A stretch of 31,226 nt of DNA, from the IMG/VR virus record IMGVR_UViG_3300030117_001964, positions 1,393 to 32,618 of that record; one strand, 5' to 3'. Positions 11,333 through 20,552 of this stretch are shown in pieces. Position numbers and translations under genes: made by a program. This DNA comes from a virus. The notes under the pieces were generated by a model. It ran no database searches. It saw nothing but the letters and a program-made list of their open reading frames with translations, and was not told the DNA's origin. The stretch's first letter is position 1, and each line of letters starts with the position of its first letter.

Positions 11333-11358
11333 AATAAGGGGGCCGTAGCCCCCTTATT
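11333..11358 (-). terminator. Hairpin terminator after the 11370-11582 gene
   Basis: A perfect 11-bp stem (AATAAGGGGGC / GCCCCCTTATT). In the minus-strand RNA the loop is UACG closed by C-G, a UNCG-class stable tetraloop, which fixes the orientation. It begins 12 bases after the stop codon. The following sequence (CCTTGTAATTTATTTAAG) is T-rich without a clean U tract, so it may act as a terminator of moderate efficiency or as an RNA 3'-end protector. Confidence 0.6.
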
Positions 11359-12398: not shown

Positions 12399-12877
12399 AC
12401 TATTTCATTTCCTTCTTTAAATGGTAGGTAGGCATTTGTTCTCATAATAATGCCACCGTTAATTGTTTTTTGTGTCCTTGTATTCTTAACGTCAAAATCA
12501 AACATAAAGTTCCCATATTTATTTGTAATCTTCCAATACATTACTATATCATCTTTGATAAGATATAGAAAACCAAGATATGGAACTCGTAACATTTCTG
12601 AAAGTCGTTTGCCATCCAGTATCTTTTCAAATGTCACAAGCCAAGACCCATACTCCATCAGTTGTATAAGGCCCATGTCTCTGCATTTGGATTCAAAAAT
12701 ACCTGACAGCTCATTATTTTTTATAATAATACCATCTATCTTGGCATCCATATCTTTGTTTGTTTCTATCAGCATAGAACTATTCTTATGTTTCTTGCAA
12801 ATACTTTCCCTGATCTTCTCTAGCATTTTTCTCTCGTACTCTAGAGACTTCTGTCCTTTTGTAGTAAGTATATCCAT
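12395..12877 (-). CDS. PD-(D/E)XK-type nuclease
   Basis: 160 residues. After an N-terminal helix (LEYERKMLEKIRES) the segment DAKIDGIIIKNNELSGIFESK gives Asp48, then a strand, then Glu62-Ser-Lys64, the D-x(n)-E-x-K core of the restriction-endonuclease fold. The helix after it (MGLIQLMEYGSWLVTFEKIL) and the following strands fit the same fold. Size is that of a single catalytic domain with no obvious DNA-recognition extension. Start ATG overlaps the previous stop by one base (TAATG). Possible roles are DNA recombination, host DNA degradation or end processing; which one is not shown. Confidence 0.6.
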   Translation of the reverse strand: MDILTTKGQKSLEYERKMLEKIRESICKKHKNSSMLIETNKDMDAKIDGIIIKNNELSGIFESKCRDMGLIQLMEYGSWLVTFEKILDGKRLSEMLRVPYLGFLYLIKDDIVMYWKITNKYGNFMFDFDVKNTRTQKTINGGIIMRTNAYLPFKEGNEIV

Positions 12878-13353
12878 TAGAATGGCACCTCAGCACTTTT
12901 AAATAATTGTATCACCCTGCCAACAGGATAGTACACTTCAGATTCAAAATCGTTCATAAACTTTTTCATAAATACATCCACCAATACTTTAGCACCCTTG
13001 ATATCATGGAGATAAAGGTAGGGTAGTTGCCCACCCTTACCCTTATCTCTGCGGAGTTGCATCACAGAAAGGAACTTTGCGAAACCCCAGTTCTTTCTGT
13101 GTTCGTATAGACAATCGTCTACTTTTTTGTACCTAAAAACACCATCGTCTTTGACCACACATGCCTCGTACTCTGGGTGTTCTTTTCCATCTATTTCATA
13201 CTCTGGCTTAAACACATCTGCTACATACCTACCAAACCTAACATTCTCAGATGTGCTCATGTCTGTTATGATTGCAGTATACCTGCCTGCGGGGACAGAT
13301 TTACTGAACTGATTGTCATCAGCGGGATAAAATGCATCTCCAAAATCAACCAT
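12877..13353 (-). CDS. Possible ssDNA-binding protein (DUF669-like)
   Basis: 158 residues, beta-rich in the first half: SVPAGRYTAIITDMSTSEN, then RFGRYVADVFKPEYEIDGK, the pattern 'P-x-G-x-Y-x-A-x-I ... G-R-Y-V-x-D' of DUF669-type phage proteins thought to have an OB-like fold and bind ssDNA. The C-terminal half contains basic RRDKGKGGQLPYLYLHDIKG and ends SAEVPF rather than the acidic tail usual for SSBs. It lies between nuclease genes, where an SSB or annealing partner would be expected. Alternative: an unrelated structural protein. Family call is tentative. Confidence 0.45.
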   Translation of the reverse strand: MVDFGDAFYPADDNQFSKSVPAGRYTAIITDMSTSENVRFGRYVADVFKPEYEIDGKEHPEYEACVVKDDGVFRYKKVDDCLYEHRKNWGFAKFLSVMQLRRDKGKGGQLPYLYLHDIKGAKVLVDVFMKKFMNDFESEVYYPVGRVIQLFKSAEVPF

Positions 13354-13354
13354 G

Positions 13355-13753
13355 TTAGAAGTGTTTCATAGTTCCTATCTTATCTAAACAGGCCTGTAGG
13401 TTTTCAAGAGTGATGTTACCGTTCTTAAGCTGATATAATACTTTATTCTTATCCTTCTGCCCTAAAGTAGCAACCGCTCTTTTGATGTACTCTTCATCTG
13501 TTTCCTTAATTACTTCACCGTCAAACTTCTTTACTACTGCATCTTTCAGTTCACCGTTTGTCATCGCTTTGTTCTTGTCAAGCATACCCTTGATGCCATC
13601 GTAACCGTGTATGATAAACTGCACCCACTTTTCCATTGTCTTCATATTGTCAGGGTTTAATTCCTGTCCTTTCTCGATAAAGGCAACTGCGACACCATGT
13701 CGTATCTTGCCTTCTGTTATCTTATCCCAGTCGGGTTGTTTCTGATCGCTCAT
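13355..13753 (-). CDS. 132-residue conserved phage-type protein, function unknown
   Basis: Begins MSDQKQPDWDKITEGKIRHG followed by a helical protein; the 'PDWDKIxEGKxRHGVAVAF' opening is one I associate with early genes of marine phages next to recombination nucleases. GGAG lies seven bases before the ATG. The start overlaps the upstream nuclease stop by four bases (ATGA). The C-terminal half (LYQLKNGNITLENLQACLDK) is a helical bundle. Co-translation with the Cas4-like nuclease suggests it works with it, but that is inference. Confidence 0.6.
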   Translation of the reverse strand: MSDQKQPDWDKITEGKIRHGVAVAFIEKGQELNPDNMKTMEKWVQFIIHGYDGIKGMLDKNKAMTNGELKDAVVKKFDGEVIKETDEEYIKRAVATLGQKDKNKVLYQLKNGNITLENLQACLDKIGTMKHF

Positions 13754-14478
13754 AGATCATCTCCTTTTTCTTTTAACCCCCCACCACATACTTGATAAAA
13801 GTTGCAGTACTTAATATTGCATTCCCACTTATAAGCAGGTGCAACCCCCAGTTCTATAGCAGGGTTTCCTTTTTTAAATCGCTTGTTTACATCATACCAG
13901 TATTCTTTTGCTCTGTCTATATATGATGTTAATATTCTCTTCTCTCGCATTCTTGAGTTGTCTTTGTTATAGTATAGTAACGACAACTTTTTTAATTTGT
14001 TCCCAAATTCTTTTTCATACCACCATCCATACGTTCCAAGTTGCAAGTAATAATTCTTGGGAGGGTTTGGGTCTGGCTTTCTTCCAAAGATCCCTTTCCA
14101 TTTCCATGCATTGCATGTTTTTATATCATACAATGCATTATCGTCAACCATCACAACATCCAGAAACCCCCTTACATTTACTTCTGGAAGTTGTATCTCA
14201 CGTTCAATTAATATCTGTGATCCGTTCAAACTTGCGTACTCCATTAGTGCTTCCTGTATGTCTCCATGCACAAGGTCTCCAAGTCTAAATAATCTTAGTG
14301 TATCATCACCCACAGGGGTTGGTTTCACACCTGCAACATGCTGAAAGTAATGCTTACGCATACACATCCCAGAGGCGGAGGCATGAAACCATTGCTCGTT
14401 ACCTTCGTACCTTTTCTTGTAGTGTGCATCGTTACCTTTACGAAGCCACTTATCGTATATGTCTTGTATGTCAATCAT
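13750..14478 (-). CDS. RecB/Cas4-family Fe-S PD-(D/E)XK exonuclease
   Basis: 242 residues from the ATG at 14478, seven bases after AGGGG (a TTG one codon earlier is less likely). Motifs: GDLVHGDIQEAL with His71; RGFLDVVMVDD with Asp107; YDIKT with Asp118 and Lys120 as the (D/E)xK pair; and QLGTYGWWY with Gln146 and Tyr150, the QxxxY motif. Four Cys match the 4Fe-4S signature of AddB/Cas4: Cys39 in GMCMRKHYF, then Cys220, Cys225 and Cys231 in WECNIKYCNFYQVC. Such enzymes resect or nick DNA ends; phage copies usually serve recombination with an annealing protein, or act on host DNA. No cas1, cas2 or CRISPR array is nearby, so adaptation is unlikely. Its leader appears structured and may control translation. 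Confidence 0.8.
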   Translation of the reverse strand: MIDIQDIYDKWLRKGNDAHYKKRYEGNEQWFHASASGMCMRKHYFQHVAGVKPTPVGDDTLRLFRLGDLVHGDIQEALMEYASLNGSQILIEREIQLPEVNVRGFLDVVMVDDNALYDIKTCNAWKWKGIFGRKPDPNPPKNYYLQLGTYGWWYEKEFGNKLKKLSLLYYNKDNSRMREKRILTSYIDRAKEYWYDVNKRFKKGNPAIELGVAPAYKWECNIKYCNFYQVCGGGLKEKGDDL

Positions 14479-14585
14479 CAATATTCCCCTGTGGTATGTG
14501 AAAGAAACAGGGCAGTCCCAGATGTGTAGTTGTGGTAAGGTAGAGTAGGAGCTTAGGAACTCTGACCTTGAGAACTGCCCTGTGC
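14479..14585 (-). ncRNA. Structured leader of the Cas4-like nuclease, riboswitch-like layout
   Basis: In the minus-strand RNA, ACAGGGCAGU (14583-14574) pairs perfectly with ACUGCCCUGU (14516-14507); three inner U-G/C-G/U-G pairs extend it to 13 bp. Inside is a second hairpin: AAGGU and AGAGU (14569-14559, one bulged C) pair with ACUCU and ACCUU (14546-14537) around a 12-base loop. The 3' arm CCCUGU can alternatively pair with ACAGGG at 14492-14487, which contains the ribosome binding site AGGGG of the nuclease. The two pairings exclude each other, as in translational riboswitches. Ligand or protein partner unknown; no known riboswitch class recognised. Confidence 0.55.
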
Positions 14586-14589
14586 GGAA

Positions 14590-14796
14590 TCATTTATCTC
14601 TGTACTTTAATATGTCATGATCACGTGAGTACAGAGTAATCTCTATATATTGACCGCTCTCTGTCCTAATGACCATAGTCCTGTAGTACTTGTTATGTCT
14701 ACTCATTGAAGCTTCTAGTTTGCTAGTTTCTTCAATGGATACTGATGAGACACCGTGTATACTGATGTCCTGTATTTCACCCACTTGTAAGTTCAT
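14590..14796 (-). CDS. 68-residue hypothetical protein
   Basis: The ATG at 14796 has AAGGA in front of it within the end of the preceding gene (20-base overlap). The product is beta-rich: MNLQVGEIQDISIHGVSSVS, then MVIRTESGQYIEITLYSRD. It resembles a small one-domain beta barrel, but no family is recognised. Its stop lies five bases before the structured leader of the nuclease gene. Confidence 0.6.
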   Translation of the reverse strand: MNLQVGEIQDISIHGVSSVSIEETSKLEASMSRHNKYYRTMVIRTESGQYIEITLYSRDHDILKYRDK

Positions 14797-15004
14797 AGTT
14801 ATCCTTTCCTTGTTGTTCTTCTGCCCACTTATCCAGAGCAGTATATTCCTCTGCCTCAGCCCTTGCAATATGTTCTAAGGCACGCTTTAGTCCACATATC
14901 TCTGCAAAGTAATAGTCGTTAGATGGGTTATCATCCCACAGTTCCTCTGCTTGAGTTATGTCTTTATTTATCCTGTACTTTAGTTTGCTCAACACACTGA
15001 ACAT
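14777..15004 (-). CDS. 75-residue acidic helical protein
   Basis: Two in-frame ATGs occur at 15010 and 15004. Only the second has a usable distance (six bases) from AGGAG, because the first directly abuts it; so I start at 15004. The product is helical, acidic and Ala/Glu-rich (LEHIARAEAEEYTALDKWAE). It overlaps both neighbours. Function unknown. Confidence 0.6.
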   Translation of the reverse strand: MFSVLSKLKYRINKDITQAEELWDDNPSNDYYFAEICGLKRALEHIARAEAEEYTALDKWAEEQQGKDNYELTSG

Positions 15005-15170
15005 CGTCATCTCCTTTTATGTCGTATATGTCTCCAATATCGTAAGTAAATCCTGTCTTCGGATCGTACATGATAGGCACTCGTATATGCTTCTCTCCAT
15101 TGAAGCCTTGATACTCGTACCGTACTCTAAGTGATTGTTGAAGCTTTTTATTTATTGTTACTTGTTTCAT
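14964..15170 (-). CDS. 68-residue hypothetical protein
   Basis: The ATG at 15170 (MKQVTINKKLQQSLRVRY) follows AGGTG; a GTG three codons earlier is possible. Beta-rich with KHIRVPIMYDPKTGFTYDIG in the middle and an acidic end (DDDVQC). It overlaps the following gene by 41 bases and the HNH gene by four. A promoter-like sequence lies so close upstream that a transcript from it would be almost leaderless. Function unknown. Confidence 0.6.
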   Translation of the reverse strand: MKQVTINKKLQQSLRVRYEYQGFNGEKHIRVPIMYDPKTGFTYDIGDIYDIKGDDDVQCVEQTKVQDK

Positions 15171-15691
15171 TTTGTACACCTATAACGACTAACTATATCA
15201 ATAAGTTCCAAATTTTTTTCATATTCTTTTATCATTGCCTGTATGTCCTTGTAATAATCATACTCTTTATACGTTTTTATTTTGTGACAGTTGCGACATC
15301 GAACCTCACACTTATCTATCTCTGCTTTAATTGTACTCCACTTGTACCCATTTCTCACCATGTAAGATACGCCTTCTGTTCTATGGAACTTTTTCTTAAC
15401 TCCTCTAACATGATCGAACTCCAGAACTCGATGGTCTGTCGTACCGCAGTCCACACAACCCTTAGCAAAGTAGAGATATAAAACTCTTTCGTAGTTCTCA
15501 TTGCGTAATCTTTCTTTTCTTTCTTTTACCTGCTGTAATCTTGAATCTCTGTTCTTTGCGTACCATTCCTTGTTGTGATAGTTGGTTTGACACTTCATGC
15601 AGTAGTGCTGTCTACCATCTGGCTTTTGCCTATTGATATAAAAATCTTTTTTGGGTTTGTCTTGTTTGCAACTAGCACATCTTTTCATCAT
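15167..15691 (-). CDS. HNH endonuclease with N-terminal zinc finger
   Basis: 174 residues (ATG codons at 15691 and 15688; no strong ribosome binding site). A CxxC...CxxC finger is formed by Cys5, Cys8, Cys31 and Cys34 (KRCASCKQ, HYCMKCQ). A basic linker helix follows (LQQVKERKERLRNENYER). The HNH core is GCVDCGTTDHRVLEFDHVRG (Cys79, Cys82, Asp93-His94) and CEVRCRNCHKIKT (Asn134, His136, Cys132, Cys135). This is the free-standing phage HNH type often acting as a homing endonuclease, or in other phages as a packaging partner of the terminase. Here it is far from the terminase and inside the early operon, and no intron or split gene is visible beside it, so homing between phages is the more likely role. 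Confidence 0.8.
   Translation of the reverse strand: MMKRCASCKQDKPKKDFYINRQKPDGRQHYCMKCQTNYHNKEWYAKNRDSRLQQVKERKERLRNENYERVLYLYFAKGCVDCGTTDHRVLEFDHVRGVKKKFHRTEGVSYMVRNGYKWSTIKAEIDKCEVRCRNCHKIKTYKEYDYYKDIQAMIKEYEKNLELIDIVSRYRCTK
15180..15211 (-). promoter_or_regulatory. Promoter-like repeat copy (weak): TTGGAAC-19-TTATAG
   Basis: TTGGAAC at 15211-15205, 19 bases, then TTATAG at 15185-15180, with CG before the -10 as in other copies. It lies within the end of the HNH gene and only about 10 bases from the next ATG, so its use is doubtful. Confidence 0.35.
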
Positions 15692-19586: not shown

Positions 19587-19596
19587 TTTGCCCCCT

Positions 19597-19623
19597 AAAG
19601 GGGATGCTTTACGCATCCCCTTT
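19597..19623 (-). terminator. Intercistronic hairpin, 11-12 bp stem
   Basis: AAAGGGGATGC / GCATCCCCTTT around GUAAA (minus RNA), with one more possible A-U pair. It sits between genes, directly before AGGGGGC, the ribosome binding site of the gene at 19586. No U tract follows, so it may be an attenuator, RNase barrier or translation control element as much as a terminator. Confidence 0.5.
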
Positions 19624-19639
19624 AATTTGTGTAATTTAG

Positions 19640-19912: not shown

Positions 19913-19939
19913 GGAAGTCGGGAAAGGTTCCCGACTTCC
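19913..19939 (-). terminator. Perfect 12-bp intercistronic hairpin
   Basis: GGAAGTCGGGAA / TTCCCGACTTCC with a three-base loop, between the genes at 19955 and 19640. On the plus strand it is followed by T8 (a classic terminator pattern for rightward transcription); on the minus strand it lacks a U tract. It could be bidirectional, or protect minus-strand RNA 3' ends. Confidence 0.55.
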
Positions 19940-20534: not shown

Positions 20535-20552
20535 GGGCCCCTTTCGGGGCCC
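20535..20552 (-). terminator. Rho-independent terminator of the DUF932 gene
   Basis: Minus strand: GGGCCCC-GAAA-GGGGCCC, a 7-bp all-GC stem with a GNRA loop, followed by GATTCTTTTATTTTTTTT. It begins 15 bases after the DUF932 stop codon. It isolates DUF932 transcription from the early block. Confidence 0.8.

Follow-up and report, generated by a model that had tools for sequence, protein, structure and literature searches.

The nuclease operon

The window, by which we mean the whole 31,226-nucleotide stretch of DNA that was analyzed, is part of a 38.9-kb virus record (IMGVR_UViG_3300030117_001964) with a P22-like portal and terminase. A nuclease gene lies on its minus strand in an early operon, with these neighbors:

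12877 to 13353, minus strand: gene for a 158-aa protein with a predicted OB-fold-like structure (AlphaFold pLDDT 84.7), a candidate single-strand-binding protein
13355 to 13753, minus strand: 132-aa gene with no assigned function, its start overlapping the nuclease stop
13750 to 14478, minus strand: PD-(D/E)XK/Cas4-like nuclease gene (Pfam PF12705, E 8e-9; PHROG 1706, E 2e-22; PHROG 1990 Cas4-domain exonuclease, E 5e-10)
14590 to 14796, minus strand: upstream 68-aa gene with no assigned function, which most relatives have immediately ahead of the leader
14777 to 15010, minus strand: 77-aa gene, directly before the nuclease in other lineages, with a long hairpin preceding it

The 158-aa protein matched no sequence family (Pfam, PHROGs). 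The best PDB match of its model is PrgE of plasmid pCF10 (E 2e-3), which we take to be an ssDNA-binding protein, entry 8s4t being DNA-bound, and SSBs follow (E 2e-3 to 0.1); the model also matches DUF669 phage proteins (E about 1e-4). Judging from these matches of a predicted structure, it is likely a divergent ssDNA-binding protein of these phages. The predicted fold of the 68-aa protein gave no PDB match below E 0.1, and this protein was rejected as an obligatory partner of the leader, as the record of one leader-bearing relative (L059) has no match to it. An HNH endonuclease gene is found shortly upstream of the nuclease operon (15167-15691, minus strand).

Structure of the leader

Between the stop of the 68-aa gene and the start of the nuclease lies a structured leader, whose parts are listed here in 5′ to 3′ order of the RNA:

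14479 to 14589, minus strand: the whole structured leader
14571 to 14583, minus strand: outer stem 5′ arm ACAGGGCAGUUCU, from base pairing and covariation
14559 to 14569, minus strand: inner hairpin 5′ arm AAGGUcAGAGU, from pairing, folding and covariation across 21 distinct arm pairs
14537 to 14546, minus strand: inner hairpin 3′ arm ACUCUACCUU, from pairing, folding and covariation
14520 to 14536, minus strand: unpaired, nearly G-free linker ACCACAACUACACAUCU, whose ACUACAC core is, within the main lineage, better conserved than any other unpaired stretch
14507 to 14519, minus strand: outer stem 3′ arm GGGACUGCCCUGU, from base pairing and covariation
14485 to 14490, minus strand: nuclease ribosome-binding site, AGGGGA here and AAAGGA in most relatives, within the conserved context CACAUACC

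The core of the outer stem pairs ACAGGGCAGU (14583-14574) with ACUGCCCUGU (14516-14507) in 10 perfect base pairs, and reaches 13 bp, including two G-U, when extended to 14571/14519. It encloses an inner hairpin (14569-14559 with 14546-14537) of 10 bp and one bulged C. An earlier, sequence-only reading of this DNA had described exactly such an outer stem (10 bp, or 13 counting G-U) enclosing a bulged 10-bp hairpin, and both are present base for base on the minus strand. The minimum energy of the window leader is −33.7 kcal/mol (z = −2.3), with 5 of 200 shuffles equally good; this single-sequence folding signal, taken alone, is only suggestive. When 25 leaders were folded in context, 24 had an outer stem probability of at least 0.96, while the nuclease ribosome site had a mean unpaired probability of 0.52, and is thus predicted to be about half accessible. 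The layout is that of a gp32-type operator, in which the folded part comes first and a ribosome-binding region with less structure follows.

Homologues and covariation

Searching with the nuclease yielded 64 viral contigs, and alignment of the nuclease added 19 viral loci (L093-L111) and one cellular contig. The latter (L112, DKQR01000126.1), from MAG UBA7303, a Candidatus Marinimicrobia bin, is the only cellular match and has both nuclease and leader; its presence in that bin may be a host assignment or else binning contamination. No cultured relatives of the nuclease were found by tblastn at E 1e-5 in 50,697 phage records. The nuclease has a leader arranged like that of the window ahead of it in 50 loci of the first set, in L093-L096 and in L112.

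Across 56 sequences with homologous leaders, compensatory change is strong in the outer and the inner stem alike. MAFFT alone misaligned the inner stem; the stems were anchored by hand and by covariance model. Among 41 leaders aligned to the covariance model, changes on both sides occur in 14 of 16 pairs. This 41-row alignment has 104 double-change cells, where shuffles give 27 ± 5 and slid registers no more than 25, and its covariation score is 0.484 vs. 0.186. Alignment to a covariance model is biased towards the model's own structure, and the outer stem was therefore also anchored by hand: its 33 distinct arm pairs form 385 pairs between own arms, compared with 295 ± 8 after permutation of the arms among phages; the highest of 20,000 permutations gives 335. 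Covariation is visible even between close relatives, as in GCAGGC/GCCUGC of L026 vs. GCAGAC/GUCUGC of L034. Pairs −2 to +7 of the outer stem include G-U and no A-C, and because of this the structure can be assigned to RNA of the nuclease's own strand.

The covariance model matches the window leader, which is one of its training sequences, at 14476-14587 (68 bits, E 4.9e-17), and also recovered diverged leaders on which it had not been trained (L016, L023, L024, L030, L027, L059, L042, L047). A model scan of 30 whole records placed the leader always upstream of the nuclease, with at most one strong copy per record. DNA scans combining the linker with the outer arm or the ribosome site find essentially this nuclease locus only. 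A mobile or repeated element was considered and rejected, being opposed by the copy number and by pattern scans of viral contigs, which match this locus only, save for two unrelated records sharing one sequence. The sequence-only reading had named covariation among homologues as the check on its stems; compensatory changes are found in both arms, and a conserved cis-acting RNA structure ahead of the nuclease is confirmed computationally, together with its strand and place.

No known aptamer had been recognized in the leader, and Rfam agrees: neither the window nor ten relatives had a match at gathering threshold, and with E allowed up to 10 the best sub-threshold match was to an unrelated snoRNA (E 0.64). 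The leader is a structured RNA family so far unlisted in Rfam, of a known general kind, the cis-acting phage mRNA leader.

Unpaired segments and the proposed switch

ACUACAC in the long 3′ linker is almost invariant within the main lineage and is replaced in L016, L023, L027, L059, L042 and L047. Unpaired bases vary between sub-lineages (ACAACUACAC, AACGUCAUGU and others). The apical loop is U-rich, and G content is only 9% in the linker and 6% in the loop. Most relatives have the ribosome site embedded in CACAUACYAAAGGA, surroundings that other genes of the window do not use. CACAU is found in the linker and then again just before the ribosome site.

The leader had been read as riboswitch-like, the 3′ arm of its outer stem pairing either with the 5′ arm or with the nuclease ribosome site. 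CCCUGU is indeed complementary to ACAGGG (14492-14487), which holds the ribosome site, but the mutually exclusive switch built on this complementarity is not conserved. Strong pairing (−10.6 kcal/mol) is limited to the window and its closest relative, L001, and over 43 distinct leaders the 3′ arm pairs with its own ribosome site at −4.16 kcal/mol vs. −4.26 kcal/mol with the site of another phage. The AAAGGA site of most relatives pairs poorly with GCCCCGU or GCCCUUA. Two further candidate pairings were rejected, one an apical loop/ribosome-site pseudoknot hinted at by UCCUU/AAGGA (own −4.40, cross −4.50, permutation 0.70), the other between apical loop and linker (permutation 0.19, the same as with shuffled linkers). 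What stands of the riboswitch-like leader is a conserved cis-acting RNA fold with covariation; a conserved expression platform and a fixed ligand pocket do not, and the lineage-variable unpaired bases argue against a fixed small-molecule aptamer.

A reading frame through the leader

The sequence-only reading had missed a frame that is kept open throughout the leader:

14471 to 14593, minus strand: small open reading frame (sORF) of 40 codons (MIPHRAVLK...), its ATG overlapping the upstream TGA and its stop TGA lying inside the nuclease start region

Across the family the sORF has 33-41 codons; it opens at the stop codon of the upstream gene and in most cases closes on the start of the nuclease. 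Of 24 representatives, 17 have an ATG at the upstream stop or only a few bases away from it (often as ATGA or TAATG), and in relatives with the ATG the sORF stop is mostly at +1, +4 or +5 of the nuclease. Operon neighbors also overlap start-to-stop. In 17 of 18 leaders the frame extends as far as the nuclease start region, where dinucleotide shuffles predict 7 (P about 4e-7 if independent). Of 16 distinct length patterns, 12 agree in the phase of the distance from the ATG to the AGG of the ribosome site (94 to 112, in steps of three; permutation P 0.002). The leaders share ancestry and are not independent, so both P values are optimistic. Other frames of the same leaders often contain stops.

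From lineage to lineage, the segments between leader landmarks differ in length by numbers not divisible by three, and compensating indels are found (L008 vs. L011, L026 vs. L028) with largely unrelated intervening peptides. Because indels compensate while peptides change, selection appears, from these comparisons, to act on the frame rather than on the peptide. A conserved sORF peptide was rejected, since frames shift internally between close relatives; what the computation shows is a constraint on the frame and none on the peptide. The canonical ATG at the upstream stop is absent in L006, L007, L037, L044, L094 and L096, the through frame is absent in L006 and L047, and an early end or phase shift occurs in L033, L036, L043 and L047. 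With some lineages lacking the canonical ATG or the through frame, the sORF cannot be essential everywhere. The overlay of structure and frame selection in this leader is unusual.

Other hairpins in the operon and in other lineages

We found further hairpins between early genes of the window. One, UUAAAGGGGAUGC...GCAUCCCCUUUA (19596-19624, minus strand), lies just before a small gene and is kept in five relatives (L122-L124, L127, L128), with change in both arms (GGGAGUG/CACUCCC vs. GGGGAUG/CAUCCCC). More strong palindromic hairpins are at 19913-19939, 11333-11358 and 20535-20552; the first of these is not kept in the relatives examined. At the leader itself, an intrinsic terminator was rejected, with no scan match and with variable downstream bases that have no common U-tract, and so was a sigma-70 promoter, promoter-like matches being at chance level.

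In lineages with the 77-aa gene directly before the nuclease, a long hairpin sits before the 77-aa gene instead. In L051 this is a 14-bp stem around ...CCACAACUAC... that lacks an inner hairpin, and its homology to the window leader is plausible. For the 10-15 bp stems with other loops in L055, L058 and L098-L102, and the 14-16 bp stems further upstream in L048-L050 and L097, model matches are weak and homology is uncertain. In L099-L102, about 240-350 bases before the nuclease and ahead of the 77-aa gene, two long helices interleave, TAGCAGAGT...ACTCTGCTA and AGGGAGTGAG...CTCACTCCCT; they could be mutually exclusive or combine into a pseudoknot. Among the nucleases examined, the most diverged (L103-L111, at 56-59% identity) have no comparable stem up to 1.6 kb upstream.

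Function of the leader

The explanation that we tentatively prefer, while putting it at a little short of probable, is that this is a translated, structured coupling leader that tunes translation of the nuclease/OB-fold-protein operon. It would exert cis-acting translational control on a recombination-type phage operon consisting of the nuclease, the 132-aa protein and the OB-fold-like protein. Ribosomes ending the upstream 68-aa gene would restart on the overlapping ATG, translate 33-41 codons across both stems, terminate at the nuclease start codon or just past it, and reinitiate at that point. The fold would set the share of ribosome traffic that reaches the nuclease and, when free of ribosomes, would show its G-poor linker and loop to a regulator. 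Translation of the sORF, coupling as the driver of nuclease translation and the existence of a trans-acting partner are what we infer here, and several observations point this way: covariation in both stems, the fixed place upstream of the nuclease, the frame constraint and the gene overlaps of the operon. There is natural precedent in the AUGA-overlap uORF of M. tuberculosis ppe2 (PMC11260477). As in a coupled uORF, start and stop overlap and the frame appears to be kept by selection, with the qualification that several lineages lack the ATG and that the lineages are related. Against this explanation, several lineages are without canonical ATG or through frame, the ribosome site is predicted to be about half accessible and hence offers no clear on/off geometry, and the structure may be partly generic because there are other intercistronic hairpins in the same operon.

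Those GGG/CCC hairpins, one of them changing in both arms, are the reason that a generic processing or stabilizing hairpin is a serious rival, even if we consider it unlikely. An RNA-processing, 5′-end-protecting or stabilizing stem would punctuate the operon, giving the nuclease segment its own mRNA level while sensing nothing. It would fit with conservation of intercistronic hairpins such as that at 19596-19624, with the excess of terminator-like stems in the early region (14 vs. 4.9 expected), and with the persistence of a 10-16 bp stem upstream of the operon in other lineages while sequence, loops and neighboring gene change. However, it leaves the conserved ACUACAC linker, the inner hairpin and the frame constraint unexplained, and a terminator would have no family-wide U-tract. 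The leader duplex has a 10-16 bp outer and a 5-10 bp inner stem with an 18-25 nt one-sided loop between, which breaks the duplex, unlike the continuous substrate of RNase III. We regard as rather unlikely an autogenous operator like that of T4 gene 32, at which the operon's OB-fold/SSB-like protein or another phage protein would nucleate on the fold, spread over the G-poor RNA and the ribosome site, and shut the operon off when in excess. Such operators have a folded element 5′ of a less structured ribosome-site stretch and are strongly diverged between phages (PMC535899), and the nearly G-free linker and loop, as well as the repetition of CACAU in the linker and just before the ribosome site, are consistent with one here. 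The candidate partner that suggests itself is the 158-aa protein, encoded two genes downstream in the controlled unit, whose predicted OB fold is similar to those of ssDNA-binding proteins; its action would be compatible with the coupling leader. Yet the first gene controlled is the nuclease and not the OB-fold protein, binding is putative, the OB-fold assignment comes from weak structural matches (PDB E 2e-3) with no sequence family, and the T4 operator has a pseudoknot, whereas loop-linker and loop-ribosome-site pairing is here no better than with swapped partners.

Control of the nuclease by a small-molecule riboswitch, which the sequence-only reading had raised, now seems very unlikely. 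A nested stem pair with conserved unpaired bases does stand ahead of the ribosome site, and marine phages can carry riboswitches, for example the glutamine riboswitch of phage Melnitz (PMC9004378), but no Rfam family matches, the switch pairing is limited to two near-identical phages, and the alternative pseudoknots were rejected. Moreover, the leader is found always and only at the nuclease, and its unpaired bases differ among lineages where ligand-binding nucleotides should be near-invariant. We also consider it very unlikely that the sORF is a real small gene, for instance for a membrane peptide, that shares its RNA with the structure by chance. Its open frame and its start/stop overlaps are typical of phage genes and several of its versions are hydrophobic (L016, L036, L042, L059), but the L026 and L020 versions are not, internal frame changes between close relatives swap most residues, substitutions among near-identical leaders alter amino acids, and several lineages have no ATG.

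These uncultured (apparently marine) phages have a real, unlisted RNA family with one conserved genomic address, a recombination-type nuclease operon. The leader provides a testable case in which translation through RNA structure would be selected while the peptide is not, and a candidate example, outside T4, of phage recombination proteins that control their own synthesis. It is possible, though on balance doubtful, that the coupling leader represents a new class of phage RNA regulator, in which a covarying fold and a frame-selected, peptide-indifferent frame would occupy the same 110 bases, and ribosome passage would be the signal setting nuclease/OB-fold-protein output in infection.

Comparison with known systems

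T7-type RNase III sites are intercistronic processing hairpins of phage operons. Like them, the leader has a stem between early-operon genes, ahead of a ribosome site; unlike them, it has a long one-sided conserved internal loop and a frame constraint, and any processing of it is putative. The glutamine riboswitch carried by the marine phage Melnitz (PMC9004378) is likewise a structured regulatory RNA in a marine phage, but there the aptamer is a recognized one, whereas the leader has no Rfam match or conserved ligand pocket. The T4/RB69 gene 32 operator consists of a folded element 5′ of an unstructured ribosome-binding region and diverges fast between phages (PMC535899). It resembles the leader in belonging to a phage mRNA for a DNA replication/recombination gene set and in placing its fold just 5′ of the ribosome region; it differs in having a pseudoknot where the leader has two nested stems, and in the leader the nuclease comes first, a frame-selected sORF is present and protein binding is putative.

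In M. tuberculosis ppe2, a B12 riboswitch leader acts through a coupled uORF with an AUGA overlap, by termination-reinitiation (PMC11260477). Both combine a structured leader with a short upstream frame, the stop of which overlaps with the start of the gene under control. In ppe2 a ligand-binding riboswitch is linked to the gene via the uORF, whereas the sORF of the phage leader passes through the fold itself and would receive its ribosomes from the upstream gene, and a ligand is hypothetical.
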